Below, one piece after another: positions 3,601 through 52,836 of a DNA stretch of 64,000 bases. Positions within the stretch are counted from its first letter, which is position 1. Every line of letters starts with the position of its first letter. A model generated the notes under the pieces. The model saw only the letters and a list, made by a program, of their open reading frames with translations. It was not told where the DNA came from and ran no database searches. The translations under genes were made by a program, and so were the position numbers. Origin of the DNA: Deuterostichococcus epilithicus (taxonomy: Eukaryota; Chlorophyta; Trebouxiophyceae; Prasiolales; Stichococcaceae); the NCBI GenBank assembly GCA_033439295.1, contig JAVTLE010000023.1, positions 2,392,530-2,456,529 on the forward strand, read 5' to 3'.

Positions 3601-5617
3601 TCGGCAATGCTACGTGGGCTCCGTCCGGGACTGTGCAGGCGCCGCCATGCTAGCGCCGAGCCACCTTCCAACTCGCCAGGGTGCTGCACACCGCAGGCGG
3701 GAGGGCTTCGAGTTTGCGGTGGGGCCGCCGCAGGTCATCACCAGGGACGTCGGCGGCAAGAAGCACGAGCCGTACGAGGAGGCGCTGGTGGAGGTGCCCC
3801 AGGAGCACATGGGCCAGGTGCGGCTGCTGACTGGGACGCCTGTTCCACCGGATCCAGCTGCCGGATGCCTGCGTGCAGTGCGTTCCCCAGGGTTTTCAAA
3901 CACCAAGGCTGCCTTGACGTTGGTTTGCTGGCTCGGTAGCTGGACTCAGGCCAGATGCTGCTGAGGCGGCTTTAGCACCCGTGGGCACGACCCCAGAGGG
4001 ATGTGCTCGCCATGCCATCTTATGGCGGAACTCGGGCGGCTTCTCCTCTGCCGTGATGCACAATGTGTCGAATGCCCAGGGCAGCGCACAGTGCACGCTC
4101 TGCTGCGACCCAGTCGCCCGCCGACATGAACGTCCAGTGTTGGTTATCGTCTAGTGGTGTTCCTTCACAGGTGGTGGACCTGCTGGGCCAGCGCAAGGGG
4201 CAGATGACGGAGATGAGCGCGGCAGTGGGGGAGGGCACCACACAGCGTGTCAAGTACCGCATCCCCACACGCGGCCTGCTGGTGTGCTCCCTGAGACAAC
4301 TTTTCCGGAAAAATACTGTTTCCCCTGGCCGCATTGATCATGTCCCCATGCCAACTCACATGCAGGGCCACTCGTCTGCCTGCGCGCCGGCTGCCAGGCT
4401 GGCCCCACCCAGCTGCGCAGCTTGTGACAGCGGCTTGCTGGTGCAGGTACAGCAGCGCGCAACAGCGCCGAGCAGCCGTGTCTACAAGTTGCACCATCCG
4501 TATGCAGCTTTCTTGGATTGGTGCAATCGATCGTCAAGCCATGCCGTCCGTTCGATGCACAGGGCCTGCGAAACGCCATCTTGACAGCGACAAAGGGCAC
4601 CGCAGTGCTCAATACCAACTTCCTGGAGTACGCGCCCTGGGCGGGAGACCTGAGCATGCGCGAGTTCGGCTCCCTGACCGCCTTCGAGACCGGCCAGAGC
4701 AGCACCTACGCCCTCACCAGGTCGGCTCCAATGGCACCTGGCAATGGGGGGACGCATGGGCATCTGATGCATGCCGCCTTTCAAGCGAAGCGTCCAGTGT
4801 CAATGCATGGTAAACTACCTCGACTGAGTCATGCTCTGCATGCCTGCTGCGAAGGTGCTACTCTGGCACCATCGTACTGCTGCATGCTGCTCACTTGTAC
4901 AACGATTCAGCAGGGACGATCTACAACATCTGACTGTTGTGCTGACATTACTGCGATTGTTGTGTGGTGCAGCATTGAGGCGCGTGGCAAGCTGATGATC
5001 CCGCCGGGCGTGGACATCTATGCGGGCCAGGTCATTGGCATCCACCAGCGGGCGGGCGACCTCGCCGTCAACGCCTGCAAGCGCAAGGCGGCCACCAACA
5101 TCCGCAGGTGCGCACTGCCTGAGCAGCAGCTGTCTTCTTATCGGAACCCAACGATCTTGGGGCCATTGCTGCATGTCTGGGCAATGAAACGATGGACTGT
5201 TTCCGCCGCCTGGACCGGTGTAGTTTTGCATCTCCACAATGCCGCTGCTGCCAGTTTCTTAAGCTGGCAGGAGAACGAGCTCATTGCTCGCCTCGTGTGC
5301 TCCGCAGCGCCACGAAGGACGCCACGTTCGTGCTCAGCCCGCCCATCGTGATGAGCCTGGACGACTGCCTCGAGTACATCGTCGCCGACGAGCTGGTGGA
5401 GGTGCTGAACCTGTGTCATCATGACTTTGAGGTTTTTAGTCGCTGACAGGGTGATCATTTACACGTTTCATCCGCGTGAGCGCTGCAGCATTTTAAATGC
5501 ACAGTATTGCGACTGCATACCTGGTTGCCAATGCGGCTTTCTTCCCTGGTGCAGGTGACGCCCCTGAACGTGCGCATTCGGAAGAACCCGGCGCTGGCTG
5601 GTAAGAAGGGGAAATGA
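668..5617 (+). CDS. typA: TypA/BipA ribosome-associated GTPase, chloroplast-type
   Basis: This is a translational GTPase of the TypA/BipA family, which binds ribosomes and is linked to stress tolerance; in plants it acts in the chloroplast. Fifteen exons join in phase: 668-846, 1026-1276, 1477-1603, 1738-1813, 1938-2094, 2335-2421, 2613-2674, 2879-3075, 3352-3489, 3697-3817, 4171-4281, 4563-4720, 4973-5107, 5308-5401 and 5555-5617, giving 651 residues. The G motifs are visible: AHIDHGKTT (P-loop), [14 protein letters not shown] and NKID. The BipA-type C-terminal region follows ([25 protein letters not shown], then DELVEV and a short basic tail). The first about 45 residues are Ser/Arg/Ala-rich with no acids near the start and look like a transit peptide. 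I chose ATG 668 for this; in-frame ATG codons at 653 and 614 are alternatives. Confidence 0.93.
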
Positions 5618-30051: not shown

Positions 30052-31728
30052 ATGTCCTTGTCAGCCGCTAAGAGCAGAGGCGCCGCGCTCATGTCAAATG
30101 GACAGAGGTACGAGCACGACGACCAGGATGAGAAGAAGCCTCTCAGACCCTTCGATGAGGATGAGCCCTCTTCTCCTCGTGAAGGTGCGTTGTGTTACAT
30201 CCTGTGCCGGCAGGCCTGCACTGGCGTGCTGGCGGCCGTGAACATTACTGGCTGGATCATTCCATCAGTTATTTTTCTGGACCAGATCCCGCCTCATCGA
30301 CTGATACTTGCCTACTCCCCACAGAAAAGGAAAAGGGTCACGCCCTCGATGTGGAGGCGGGCAAGCCAGGGCCAGCGGCGGCCAGCGGCCAGGACCTGCA
30401 GCGGATCTGTGGGCTGCCGCTGCCGGTGCTAGCGGGCCTGTCCTACTGCACCGCCTCCGCCAGCATGGTGCTGCTGAACAAGTTCGCGCTCAGCTCCTTC
30501 GACTTCCACTCCATCACGATGCTGCTGCTCTTCCAGTGCATCTTCTGCGTCACCGCCGTCAAGGCCTCGGCGCTGCTAGGCATCATCACAATGGAGGTGG
30601 GCGGCTGCTGCACGTAATCCCTGCCTCTGCCTGGCCACAGCAGGTTCTTCTGCACGATCTCCTGCAGCCACTTATCCGGTTGGCCGACCCCGTCTGCGGC
30701 AGACAGTCCCAATGCCACTCACCACGCGCAGGAGTGGAACTGGAAGATTGCGCGCGCATGGTTCCCGGTCAACGTCATCTTCGTGTGCATGATCTGGACC
30801 AGCTTCCCGTCGCTTCAGCTGCTTGGGGTGGCCATGGTCACCGTGCTGAAGAACCTGACGAACCTGTTCACCATTTCTGGCGACATCATATTCTTTGGCA
30901 AGCGCTACAACCTGGGTGAGTGCCGTGCACGACATGGCGTGCGCACTGCACAGTGCTAGCTGCTGCATTGCTATGCCAGGTCCGCGGTGCACCAAGCACC
31001 TGCCAAGTCTGACGTGTGTTCGCCTCTGCATTGCCGCAGGGGTGTGGGCCACGCTCGTGCTGATGTCCATTTCTGCACTGTGCGGCGCGGTCACCGACAT
31101 CCACTTCAATCTGAGGGGCTACATGTGGCAGCTGCTCAATTGCCTCTTCACTGCCGCCTACGCACTGACGCTGCGCAACGTCATGGATAAGGTGGTCTAC
31201 ATGCAACCGTCACGCCTGCCTGCTGCATGATTCTGCCTCGCTCTGATTGGGTTTCGGACCACACAGGCAGCTGCTGGCTGGATAGCAGGGCGACTTATTC
31301 TGGATCTCAACCTGCCAGTTCACCGATCCCCGCAGGTGGCACCGCTGACGAGGAACCAGCGCAAGCTGGACGAGTTCTCCATGGTGCTGTACAACAACGT
31401 GCTGTCAGTGCCCATGCTGCTGGTGGCGGCAGCCGCCAATGGCGAGTTTGCTACCATCCTGTCGGAGCCGGCGCTGCATAACCCGCGCTTCCAGGCAGCG
31501 GCGTGCTTGTCTGCCATCTGCGGCTTTATGATCAGCTTTTGTTCGCTTTGGTTCCTGTCCACAACAACGGCCACCACGTACAGCCTGGTAGGGTCGCTGA
31601 ACAAACTGCCCATCGCGTTGCTGGGGCTGCTGTTCTTCGACTCGTCCTGGGACATTAAGAACCTGGCGAGCATAGGCGTGGGGCTCATCGCGGGCGTCGT
31701 CTTCGTGCGCGCAAAACAGGCAAGCTAG
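30052..31728 (+). CDS. GDP-mannose-type nucleotide-sugar transporter (GONST/VRG4-like)
   Basis: This is a drug/metabolite-superfamily antiporter expected in the Golgi membrane, exchanging a GDP-sugar for GMP. Five exons: 30052-30184, 30325-30596, 30732-30915, 31040-31191 and 31336-31728, giving 377 residues. The N-terminus is charged and cytosolic. Then come about ten hydrophobic helices, starting with LAGLSYCTASASMVLLNKFA. Characteristic pieces are NLTNLFTISGDIIFFGKRYN, the LSTTTATTYSLVGSLNKLPI segment and a closing GLIAGVVFVRAKQAS. The SLNK tetrapeptide sits where GDP-mannose transporters carry the GALNK nucleotide-binding motif, so the Ala is replaced by Ser. ATG 30091 is an alternative start. 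Substrate (GDP-mannose, -fucose or another) is inferred from family resemblance only. Confidence 0.88.
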
Positions 31729-32331
31729 GGCGGCTGCGGGGCCCCGCGACGCTGGCGCGGCTTCTACTGACAGCCTTGCGTTGGTTCAGTACATTTTTTT
31801 TGTCGATTGTCCCGTGTGGTGCAGCAGCAGCGTGACGGGTGTGTTGGCGTGTTGGCCAGCGGCAGGTGTCTTCTGTTTTCGGTTCTGTCTTGCCATCGCA
31901 TGTGAGGTTGGATTTTCAAAGCGATGGTCCTGTCAGCGGTGCCTTGAGAGCTTCATGCAAGGAAGCCCAGCGCTATCGCGCCTGATGGTTAAACGAGCGC
32001 CACAGCAAGCGTTGAACGGGAAATCTGTGCTGTGAGGTTTGATGCAAAGCTCAAATTCAGCAACCAAATTGCCAGCCGTGACAGTGGGTAGGCATCTGGG
32101 CACGGCGCAAGGCACAAAGTAGCCCCACGATGCACATTGGCAGTCCAGCGCTGCCCCCTTCGGACGATGTGTGTGTGCCTGTGGGTGAGGCGCTTGGGAA
32201 AAACGCAACTTTACACAGTCGTCCTCAAGCTCAATGCGACTAGTTGAACATATACGGTGCTCCGGCCGCGCTGCCGCCAAACAGCGCCAGAGCAGCCTGC
32301 CACGGGTGGGTCTTCGCAAGCGTGCTCTATT
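31729..32331. other. Convergent intergenic region, transporter to Rieske gene
   Basis: About 0.6 kb with the 3' UTRs of two convergent genes. Apart from the candidate poly(A) signal at 32211-32215 nothing was recognised. Confidence 0.45.
32211..32215 (-). terminator. Candidate TGTAA polyadenylation signal of the Rieske gene
   Basis: TTACA (+) reads TGTAA on the minus strand, 117 bases beyond the distal Rieske stop codon. It lies after both alternative last exons, so one poly(A) site could serve both forms. Confidence 0.4.
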
Positions 32332-32372
32332 CTAACCGACTTGCAGCGTGTTCTCGTCGAGGAACTTGTATT
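32332..32372 (-). other. Distal alternative last exon of the Rieske gene
   Basis: This 41-base exon follows a CCCGCAG acceptor. It joins in phase to exon 5 (one base carried over) to give [13 protein letters not shown] and a TAG stop. It closely resembles the usual Rieske C-terminus and may be the ancestral copy. Confidence 0.85.
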
Positions 32373-34346
32373 CTGCGGGCACAGGACACCCCCGGGTCAG
32401 CTGGTCCACCGGCTCGTGCTTCACCTACCCGACCTGCAGCAATTGCTCCTCCAGAAATTTGTACGCTGCGCAGACACAGCCGGGTCAGCTGCTGCAGCGC
32501 CACGGCATGAAAGCTTGTCGTGGTGCCTCCTCGTAACTGCTGTGGTCTGCAGTAGTTTCGTAGCTAGGTAGAACTACCACGCACCAAATCGACCTGACAG
32601 CTGCAAGCTGCGTTGATGAGGATGCGTGTCATTCAGGACGAGACCGAGCTGGCGCAAGGAGAGCATATAAGCAGCGCTGCTCACCTGGGACCTCCAGGTT
32701 GTACGGCGCCGGACCCTTGCGCACGCGGCCGGATGTGTCGTAGTGGCTGCCATGGCACGGGCAGAACCAGCCGTGCCAGTCGCCGGCGTTGGGCAGCGGC
32801 ACACAGCCCAAGTGCGTGCACACGCCCACCACCACCAGCCACTGCGGCACAGCAACACCATGCCAGGCAGTCAGAGAAGGTCCAGATTCGACATCTCTGC
32901 GTCATCACACACCGCACCAGGAGATCTGACTGCCCGGCAAGCATCTAGCCTCTGAAAACCAGCCGAGCTCCCTCAAGGCATGCGAGAGTCCGACTAGCCT
33001 AGGAGTTCAGCAAACGTTCTCTGAGGCCTGCCATGCTGCAATCATTGGGTTCACAGATGTTCCTTTCAGGCTCATGGCCTGGATTATTCTATAGATTCAC
33101 ATTTGTTGCTTCGAGGCTCCTGCCCTCGGTGTTCGAATGCACCATATCTCTCTGATGCACGTCGGGGTTGGTGGTGCGATCGCATGAACGAAGCCACCGG
33201 TTGGTGGTTTGGTGGGGCGGTCGAGGGCTTCTGGCCAGCACAACAACTCACCAGAGTGCGGCCCACATTGCAGCACCCTGCTGGCGACGCCAGAACAGCG
33301 ACGCCTGAGTGCACCCAGTCAAGCACCTCGGGGTTGGTGGCGCGGTCGGAGTCGGGCTCCGGGTCGCGAAGCTCCTTGAGGTCCACCTTGCTTGCGGCTT
33401 CCACCTCCTGCTCGCTGCGCCTCCGCACGAAGACGGGCTTGCCGCGCCACTTCACCGTGACCGTCTGCCCCATCTCGATCTTCGACAAGTCCACCTCCAG
33501 CGCCGCCATGGCCAGCACGTCCTTCGTCGCCTGGTGCGCAACGGCGTGGCAGATTCGAGCGCCCGGAAACTCTACGCACTCTGAACAGTGATCGGTACGA
33601 GACATGTGTCCATGGGAGCAGGCTGAGCGCGACGCGGCTCGCTGCATTGTTGCTTGCGGCTCACCGTCATGGAAAGGATGAGCTTGAGCACCGCCAGCCG
33701 CAGCGCGGAGGCGTACACGAAGCGGCCGCTGGTCAGCACAAAATACGTGAACGCGCGCTTGCTGGGGTCGCCCACCGGGAAACGGTCGTGCACGTGCTCG
33801 TCATACCTGCGGTTTGGCAAGACAGATGTGACGACAGGCGGAGTGGTTTCACATGCACTTGAGCCGACGGTGCGCGTGGCAGATGGAGCACGGACTCACT
33901 GGATGATGTTGGTGGGGTTCTTCGCCGCGAACACAGTGGGCGGCAGGCCGGAGGCAGCAGCCGAGTTTGTGATGTCCGTCGTGGCGTGGGCTTCGCCTGC
34001 GGGTCAGCAGCACGTACCACTCGTGCTCCAAACCTTGTGCAGTTCGCACCGATGATCGCACAGTACTTGGCAGCAGCTGGCCTATTCGGATGCGCGTGAA
34101 TTCATGTGAACGTCTCCCGCGATCGGCCAATCTCCCCTTCGCTGCTGTGACTGTCCCAGCAGGGCAACATCGGTGGTGGCAGCTCGACTCACGTCGCTGT
34201 TGGCCGAACTGCGCAGCGTCCGACAGCAGGGACGACTGCGCAGCGTCCGAGAGCACGGCTGGCACGGTAGACAGAGCGCCGACGCTGCTGGACACGCTCG
34301 GCAGCAGCCTGGAGCCAAACAACTGGGCACCCCTGCGGAGCGCCAT
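32332..34346 (-). CDS. Mitochondrial Rieske iron-sulfur protein of the cytochrome bc1 complex
   Basis: This is the 2Fe-2S subunit of respiratory complex III. Exons (minus strand): 34346-34193, 33996-33900, 33806-33665, 33530-33327 and 32841-32685, plus one of two terminal exons (32465-32425 or 32372-32332). Either choice gives 264 residues. The presequence ([20 protein letters not shown]) is basic and contains a duplicated SDAAQ unit. Plant-type features follow: [20 protein letters not shown], the membrane helix [32 protein letters not shown] and [16 protein letters not shown]. The cluster ligands are CTHLGC and CPCHGSH. The protein continues [15 protein letters not shown] and then splits between two nearly equivalent C-termini. 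The helix and short hinge rule out the chloroplast b6f homologue. The duplicated last exon is described separately. Confidence 0.95.
32425..32465 (-). other. Proximal alternative last exon of the Rieske gene
   Basis: This 41-base exon follows a TGCGCAG acceptor and joins in the same phase to give [13 protein letters not shown] and a TAG stop. It and its upstream intron sequence (AGCTGACCCGG...) are a tandem copy of the distal exon 93 bases away. Confidence 0.85.
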
Positions 34347-50165: not shown

Positions 50166-52836
50166 TCATCCATATACTAGCACATCAGAACTGCCTGTGT
50201 ATGCCTGGGCGAAGCGCATGCCGTCGAGCGTCAGCTGCGAGAAGGCGACCTCTCGGGTGGACGCGACCCAGCCCGGCACTAGGTTGCTCCTGCACCAAAA
50301 CATGGCGGACGCATCAGACCATCAGATACGTTGCATCAGAGTCGAAGAGGCGAACGAAGGGCACAGTCGGAGCTCCAATAGCTCAGTCGACCCTGGTTCG
50401 TGGTGGCGCACGCCGGGGTGTCCAGGAGTCAGGGCTGCAGCCACATCGGCGGCCAACTTGGGCAGCTCAAGTCAGGGCAGCCAGCCCACCTGACAGCGTC
50501 TAGCAGCTTGCCCGCGATGCCGGAGTGGCGCGCTTCGGACGACACCCAGATGATGCGCACGCCGCACACCGCGTGCACCAGGCTGTGGCGGTCCACTACC
50601 AGCGCGCAGGGGGCGCCCGGCCGCTGCGCCCGCTGCTGCTGCCGCTCCGACAGCTGCCTGCCGGCCTGCTGCTGCGCCAGCGGCGTGCGGCATGCGGCCG
50701 CTGCAGGCGTAGGCGGCTGCTCGCGCTCCGCGGCTGAGCCATGCGCCGCTGCTGCATCTGTGTCTGCTGCTGCCGCTGCTGCTGTCGCCTGCCCATCTGG
50801 GGCTGCCGCAGGAGCTGCCCCTGCTGCGGCTGCCTGGCCACATCCGTCAGCCGCTGGGCTGCCGAAGTGGGGCGTGCAAGGCTGAGGCACATTGTTGCCG
50901 GCTACTGCCATAGGGTCGGCGCGCCCTGGCAGCGGCGCCAGCGGAGTGCGCAGAGCCCGAGTGCTGCTCGCCTGCACGCTGGCTGCCGGACATGCGCCGG
51001 GCGTCAGCCGCGGCGTCGCTGGCTCGCTGCAGGCCGACACCGCTGGCTGCGTCGCTGCGCCGCTACCACCTGGCGGCCTCGCCTGCCCCACCACCACGAA
51101 CCGCGTCAACGCATTGGGCTTGTGCCGCTTTGCGGTGCTCTGGCTAGACAGCCGCCGCTGCGCATCGGGCGCCGTGGCTGACGACGTGCCTGCCACCGCT
51201 TCCGCTGCCGCCGCGCTGGGCGCCTGGGCTCCAGAGGGCGAGCCGGCATTGCCGGCGGCCAGGTCGGCGGGCGGCGGCGTGCCACACTCCGGTGCTGGTG
51301 CCACCTGCCCCATCCCCTCCGTGCTGTCTGCGGCAAAGGCCGCTGCCGGGTCGTGCTGTGCATGGCCATCTGGCTGGGCGGAGCCGCCCAGCCAATTGGC
51401 GGCGGGCTGGGAGCCAGCCAGCCCCGCGGGGTCAGGCACTAGGGCCCGGTGGGCGCGCTTGATGCGCTGCGCCACTGCAACGCCCACAATCTGCTCCGCG
51501 TCCGCCCGGCTGCCAGTAATGTACAGGAACATCTGCGGCGGCAGTTGCGGCATTTCAAGTCACAAGCCCTTTGCATCAGCGATGTCTAACGATGTGCCCA
51601 GGTGCCTGGCACGGAAGCGTGCGTCGTCCGCGGTCAAACAGAGAATATTGCCAGCCTTCCGAAAGTGGGCACTGAAGTTGTGATATCAGCATCCTATGGT
51701 ACCAGGTGGCGCATGCATTCGCCGCCCCGCGCCTCACCTTGCAGGGCACGGACAGGAGCCAACGGTCGGGCAGGCCCAGCTGCTGGGCCAGCAGGCCGCT
51801 GATGTCCTGGACCTGCACCCAGACGCTGTTCAAATGCTCACATGCAAGCGCAGTTAACGGGGCATGCAATATGAGATGAGACGAGACGACCTGAGCGTGC
51901 AATGCCTGACAACAATCACAGGACCGCCAGGACCAACCTTCTTCTGCTGGTCACCGGAGCCTTGAAGGTCCAGAGCCACTAGCCTGTGCCGACCTGAGGA
52001 GCGGCTGATGACGCGCTCGTGCTGCAGGCCCTGCGGCAATGGCCATCCCCTGCTCAGATTCAGGCATGGACGAGCTTGACGGCTGATCAGCCCAGCAGTG
52101 CACTCGAACAAGAGCGCCAACCGGTTGATTGCTCATTCCCTGCCCGCTGCAATGCTGAGGCACCTGAGCCTTGACGCCCTGCGTCACTGCGGCGTGGTGT
52201 GCCTTATGCGTCTTCTCGTCCGCCGCCACGCCGCGTGCGTACACAAATCCGCACTTGCGGCAGGTTGTCATGTCAAAGTCCGACTGCGCAGTCGATCGAA
52301 AGAAGCGTTCAACTGCCTGTAATCGAATTTGAACATGCACACGAGCCAGTGGGTCGGCAGCTGGGCTAGACAGCTGCAATGCAGATGTGAATCTCACCTG
52401 CCCGCAGTTGAGGAACATCTGCATCGGCTTGCTGGCAGGGCGCCGTCTCGCAGCCTGCTGCCGCTGCTCCTGCATGTGCGACTCATGCCGCGACGGGCTC
52501 TCCGCCCGGGCCACGGGCACAAAAGCGCTGTTCGGCCGCGCTGCCCCAGCCGCAGGGCTACCCCAGGCGCTGATACGCAGCGGGCTGCTGGGCTCACCCA
52601 CCGGCCTGCAGAGCCAGGTCTCCGGGGTCACATAACAGCTTGAGAGCGCAAACTCGTACTGCAAACGCGCGAACATGAGCGCGCCTGTCACGGCGTGGCT
52701 TCTTCCGAGAGAACGTCGTCGTGAAGGGGTCTCGAGCCTGGGACGGTCCCGGCGTCTGAGCGGCTCTCAGGACCTCTGGAACAATCTTTGTGCCTGCTAC
52801 GGATCGTTTCCGCTGCTCAGCCTCACGGTTGACCAT
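50166..52836 (-). CDS. Eco1/CTF7/ESCO-type cohesin acetyltransferase with a large insertion
   Basis: ESCO proteins acetylate SMC3 in the nucleus to establish sister-chromatid cohesion. Seven exons (minus strand): 52836-52598, 52527-52398, 52283-52164, 52030-51938, 51812-51738, 51532-50490 and 50289-50166, giving 607 residues. The C2H2 zinc finger reads TTCRKCGFVYARG and DEKTHKAHH. The acetyltransferase part has MFLYITGSRADAEQIVGVAV, then, after the insertion, CGVRIIWVSSEARHSGIAGK and LLDAVR. The end is VAFSQLTLDGMRFAQAYTGS, closing SDVLVYG; the human protein ends in the same order (AFSDPTPDGKLFA, GTGQFLVY). About 260 Ala/Pro/Gln-rich residues are inserted between two strands of the GNAT fold, all within one 1043-base exon. 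The start and first intron are the least certain; an alternative first ATG lies at 52676 in another frame. Confidence 0.87.

Follow-up and report, generated by a model that had tools for sequence, protein, structure and literature searches.

Why does a gene for an essential subunit of complex III end in two candidate terminal exons, each of which could complete its reading frame? In the window, i.e. the whole analysed stretch of 64,000 nucleotides, which belongs to a 46.8-Mb assembly of 21 contigs, the minus strand encodes the mitochondrial-type Rieske iron-sulfur subunit of this complex, and the model of this gene is intact. Its first five exons are arranged as follows:

34193..34346, minus strand: exon 1, with the start codon and the presumed targeting region; the protein search of the organism's own genome matches here only.
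33900..33996, minus strand: exon 2, from the gene model.
33665..33806, minus strand: exon 3, carrying the larger part of the UCR_TM match (residues 97-135), from the gene model and the domain search.
33327..33530, minus strand: exon 4, with the atypical donor GAG/GTGCTT (the slash marks the junction); the frame is consistent with PDB alignments.
32685..32841, minus strand: exon 5, with the cluster-binding motifs CTHLGC and CPCHGS and the donor GTGAGC.

Exon 5 can be joined in phase to two copies of the last exon, 6a and 6b, and the protein models of both forms are 264 aa long. Both match TIGR01416, the profile of the mitochondrial/proteobacterial Rieske subunit of complex III, up to its last position, with 184.2 bits for the 6a form and 187.5 bits for the 6b form (curated cut-off 97.4 bits). 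Moreover, PF00355 and PF02921 exceed their cut-offs, the transmembrane region and both cluster motifs are present, and the solved structures that match best are mitochondrial Rieske chains (7jrg, 8zno and 8bel), which we take to be plant proteins. A whole-genome search with the protein gave five matches, all inside this gene on contig 19, and found no second copy of a mitochondrial-type Rieske gene; a search with the general Rieske domain hit seven contigs with 11 matches in total, a single one of which lies in this gene. Donors read GTGAGT or GTGAGC in four of the five introns (intron 5 being counted with the 6a acceptor), the fifth being GTGCTT at the end of exon 4 (33327), where the protein frame requires the join, and acceptors end in CGCAG in four of five, including that of 6a; the acceptor of 6b likewise ends in CGCAG. 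Exon 1 (34193-34346) also encodes a short internal repeat, two copies of LSDAAQ, inside the presumed targeting region.

The two terminal exons are parts of a repeated unit:

32425..32504, minus strand: first copy of the unit, with CTGAC block, acceptor and exon 6a, from local alignment.
32425..32465, minus strand: terminal exon copy 6a (proximal), with the acceptor CTGCGCAG and a TAG stop that is directly followed by a donor-like GTGAAG.
32332..32416, minus strand: second copy of the unit, with CTGAC block, acceptor and exon 6b, from local alignment.
32332..32372, minus strand: terminal exon copy 6b (distal), with the acceptor GCCCGCAG and a TAG stop.

Both exons comprise 41 bases and share the same phase onto exon 5, their starts are 93 bases apart with 52 bases between the exons themselves, and intron 5 is 219 bases long up to the 6a acceptor and 312 bases up to the 6b acceptor. 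Aligned without any gap, the exons share 29 of 41 bases, and the 12 differences change four of the 13 residues of the tail (positions 1, 6, 8 and 9); the gaps in the alignment of the units are confined to the intron part. A 12-base block, CAGCTGACCCGG, is identical between both units. The local alignment score of the units is 71, whereas none of 2000 mononucleotide shuffles scores above 40. The duplication, the phase and the splice signals can thus be read directly from the locus, and 6a and 6b go back to the tandem duplication of a single terminal splice unit. A preliminary description of this DNA had proposed such a duplication and two 41-base exons with good acceptors, a common phase and TAG stops, all of which holds, the 93 bases given there being the start-to-start spacing.

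The unit has no second site in the genome according to a DNA search, which skips simple repeats, and in eight comparisons that drew on introns 4 and 5, the 3' flank and the gene's 5' part, no additional degenerate copy scored above the null maximum. The score of unit A against 34346-33800 (29) lies above the 95% null (25) and below the null maximum (33), and that of unit B against intron 4 (25) equals its 95% null. The divergence of the exons at 12 of 41 bases makes it unlikely that the second copy is very recent or due to an assembly error. Similarity of adjacent stretches is common, however: in a survey of 264 kb, i.e. the window and 20 chosen stretches (L014-L033), 30 loci score at least 60 and 19 at least 71, the Rieske unit included, and three of 2000 random draws from the window, at two places, score above 71. 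Since neighbouring stretches are often equally alike in this genome, the duplication as such needs no special explanation; it is the presence of two intact in-phase terminal exons that is unusual.

One repeat locus of this survey (piece starts 50441-50641) overlaps the second of two open frames on the minus strand (50432-52766) with matches to the ESCO zinc finger and acetyltransferase. The domain scan of the window, which covered 20 chosen open frames, also matched a BipA/TypA C-terminal domain in an open frame on the plus strand (4428-5348), and gave a sub-threshold match to an EamA transporter in an open frame on the plus strand at 31231-31725, i.e. downstream of the Rieske gene on the opposite strand.

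In the 264 kb, CTGAC is not clearly enriched 20-39 bases before YGCAG, with 19.5 and 17.6 occurrences per 1000 YGCAG sites in the two ten-base bins versus 9.6-22.1 for three control motifs, so that we infer a branch point from this block only weakly.

How the two exons relate to each other depends on where the transcript ends. UGUAA is the poly(A) signal in derived chlorophytes (PMC1868727), and on the assumption that a signal of this type is used here, one candidate is available:

32211..32215, minus strand: TGTAA as candidate poly(A) signal; it lies downstream of 6a as well as 6b, and the minus strand has no other TGTAA within 31700-32700.

Within the same scanned range no TGTAA is found on the minus strand between 6a and 6b, and thus the two copies are more likely competing acceptors within one terminal region than distinct last exons; the separate last exons of the preliminary description are the less probable arrangement. 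The window as a whole has eight TGTAA on the plus strand and 24 on the minus strand, which may mean that more genes end on the latter.

Based on this arrangement we propose the following scheme. A 93-base tandem duplication would have copied the end of the last intron, i.e. a branch-point-like region and the acceptor, together with the entire 41-base terminal coding exon. Exon 5 may then be joined to either acceptor, either product being a full-length Rieske protein with a tail of the family type, and both isoforms would have a common 3' end close to the TGTAA that follows 6b. Use of 6a would place 6b in the 3' UTR, and skipping of 6a would bring 6b into use, the choice probably being a constitutive competition between the acceptors. 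Both tails would stay intact because damage to either of them would, while both acceptors are active, lead to a defective subunit. We give an about even chance to this reading, namely that a leaky duplicated acceptor forces both tails to remain functional.

The donor-like sequence at the end of 6a (GGGTAG/GTGAAG, the slash marking the putative junction), which is followed by a good acceptor 52 bases on, raises the possibility that both exons reside in one mRNA, with 6a being spliced after its TAG to 6b and the latter serving as a 3' UTR exon. This would leave the Rieske-type reading frame of 6b unexplained, and the resulting intron, with 52 bases, would be the shortest of the gene, the other five having 93 to 485 bases; hence we consider it very improbable.

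That both tails fit the family can be observed directly. The model lacking any tail scores 166.1 bits against TIGR01416, and the score increases to 178.6 bits with 6a, to 181.9 bits with 6b and to 180.4 bits with the tail of PDB 8bel_D, i.e. by 12.5, 15.8 and 14.3 bits, respectively; three hand-shuffled tails give 167.4-168.2 bits (a gain of 1.3 to 2.1 bits) and read-through into the intron 166.7 bits (0.6 bits). By this measure both tails are recognised as C-termini of the Rieske type.

For a closer view of the tail, family columns were derived from 50 distinct bacterial and three eukaryotic tails, the latter being taken from PDB alignments and given a weight of 5 each. The bacterial sequences go back to at least 595 pattern matches in genome_contigs, at least 529 of which are relatives; 80 of these loci, all titled as bacteria, were kept and used for the tail pattern only. 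A tail was obtained from 79 of them (L099 was missed), one with a C-terminal extension was dropped by the filter, and merging of identical tails left the 50. In viral_contigs three pattern matches occur, none of which encodes a relative.

The pattern of the differences between 6a and 6b is likewise a direct observation. Per codon position the exons differ at 2, 2 and 8 sites, an excess at third positions (binomial P 0.022), and all four residue differences fall within those five of the 13 columns that vary most in the family (post hoc P 0.007). Three of the residues specific to 6a also occur in the tails of solved relatives, E6 and Q8 in 8bel or 9f5x and L9 in 3cwb. Moreover, 6a has kept its stop, its acceptor, the CTGAC block and the residues of 6b at the conserved columns. 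When pairs with one neutral copy and one copy changing silently were simulated (6000 pairs conditioned on 12 differences, with substitutions only and no indels), 13-14% remained open with no more than four residue changes, and in about 0.4% all changes were, in addition, located in the variable columns. With some of these tests being post hoc, the evidence favours, moderately rather than strongly, a constraint on both copies, neither of which would then have drifted freely.

The same data allow a different explanation, in which one exon is live and the other one a fossil, i.e. 6b works and 6a is decaying and rarely used, or else 6a is used by default, with 6b left as a relic in the 3' UTR. Tandem duplications are frequent in this genome, a neutral copy stays open with four or fewer residue changes in 13-14% of the above simulations, and 6a shows weaker family scores and an anomalous codon usage. 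In our tail profile, which is self-built and flatters the bacterial tails as they went into it, 6a scores 13.0, less than any of the 50 bacterial tails (minimum 23.7), and 6b scores 24.8. At position 1 the Ala of 6a, which scores -3.65, lies outside the seven commonest residues listed for this column. The codons of 6a are very poor (AAA, TTT, CAA, TTG): when exons 1-5 are scanned in overlapping windows of 13 codons, a usage as low or lower is seen in only 0.4% of them; the corresponding value for 6b is 19%. Six changes in a neutral copy starting from 6b match the profile score of 6a in 14% of the runs, and under the stricter test of kept conserved columns they equal 6a in 1.3%. Codon usage and the lower family scores are thus signs of a looser constraint that may act on 6a. 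Nevertheless, the stop, acceptor, CTGAC block and conserved-column residues that 6a retains speak against this explanation, and if 6a were the default, the likely relic would be the downstream 6b, which is the better-preserved copy. We regard the combination of a live and a fossil exon as possible, though on balance rather doubtful.

Selection to keep two isoforms, as put forward in the preliminary description, is consequently backed only in part: a moderate constraint is indicated by the third-position excess (P 0.022) and by the location of four of four residue differences in variable columns, but codon usage and scores of 6a are weak. The locus is in itself no evidence for two functional isoforms. 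Keeping two tails would, we infer, not even require that two isoforms are useful, as it would suffice that both acceptors fire: a broken tail, once spliced, would harm an essential subunit, so each tail would be protected while its acceptor is active.

A regulated choice, in which the growth condition sets the tail and thereby tunes stability, translocation by Bcs1 or the movement of the cluster domain, would fit two tails that are both intact, yet differ at 12 of 41 bases and 4 of 13 residues, and that carry a signal of constraint. There is also a precedent in the respiratory chain, the mutually exclusive duplicated exons of mtacp1, which are conserved in insects (PMC551531), and the folded Rieske head is a cargo of Bcs1 (PMC12219900). 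However, all four residue differences are located in the most variable columns of the family and the conserved columns are untouched, 6a has a poor codon usage and the weaker scores, no TGTAA separates the copies, and a 401-base region of the locus folds no better than its shuffles (z 0.53, with 69 of 100 shuffles folding equally well or better). As the tails agree at all conserved columns, near-equivalent proteins are to be expected, which speaks against the suggestion that the choice of the exon tunes the protein. Two regulated isoforms are thus unlikely in our view, and we are still more sceptical of a switch in which competing duplicated acceptors would provide two condition-dependent C-terminal strands that alter the stability of the Rieske head, its translocation by Bcs1 or electron transfer.

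Tandemly duplicated exons that are used one at a time form a well-described class (PMC9013439). Like the exons of insect mtacp1 (PMC551531) and those outlined in the survey of Ivanov and Pervouchine (PMC9013439), 6a and 6b are homologous, arranged in tandem, of the same phase and, in principle, included one per mRNA, and mtacp1 is a gene of the respiratory chain as well. In contrast, the mtacp1 exons are internal, with phase 1 introns on both sides, and are backed by transcribed sequences and conservation among insects (PMC551531), whereas the Rieske exons are terminal and have their own stops. In a green alga, Volvox cyn23, the sample gene for mutually exclusive exons in PMC4378016, has two such exons of 106 nt each that give rise to proteins of equal length differing at several residues; these are, however, exons 4 and 5 of a cyclophilin-related gene and were tested experimentally (PMC4378016). 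If the poly(A) site is shared, the choice in the Rieske gene would formally be the same event as the alternative 3' splice sites of Chlamydomonas (PMC7534427), although the latter are a genome-wide event class, and a duplicated terminal coding exon is not known to be among them. The Rieske case would thus differ from the known class by the terminal exon with its own stop and by the gene affected. Among the respiratory complexes of mammals, tissue- and condition-specific isoforms are, according to a review (PMC5448071), reported for cytochrome c oxidase only. No description of an alternative C-terminus of a Rieske protein was found among the titles and abstract openings listed from an open-access library; unlisted papers, subscription papers or full texts may differ.

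Taken together, if both junctions are used, the locus would be a compact natural example of a trapped duplicated terminal exon, for which no benefit of a second isoform would be needed, and a core subunit of complex III, the Rieske protein, would have an alternative C-terminus.
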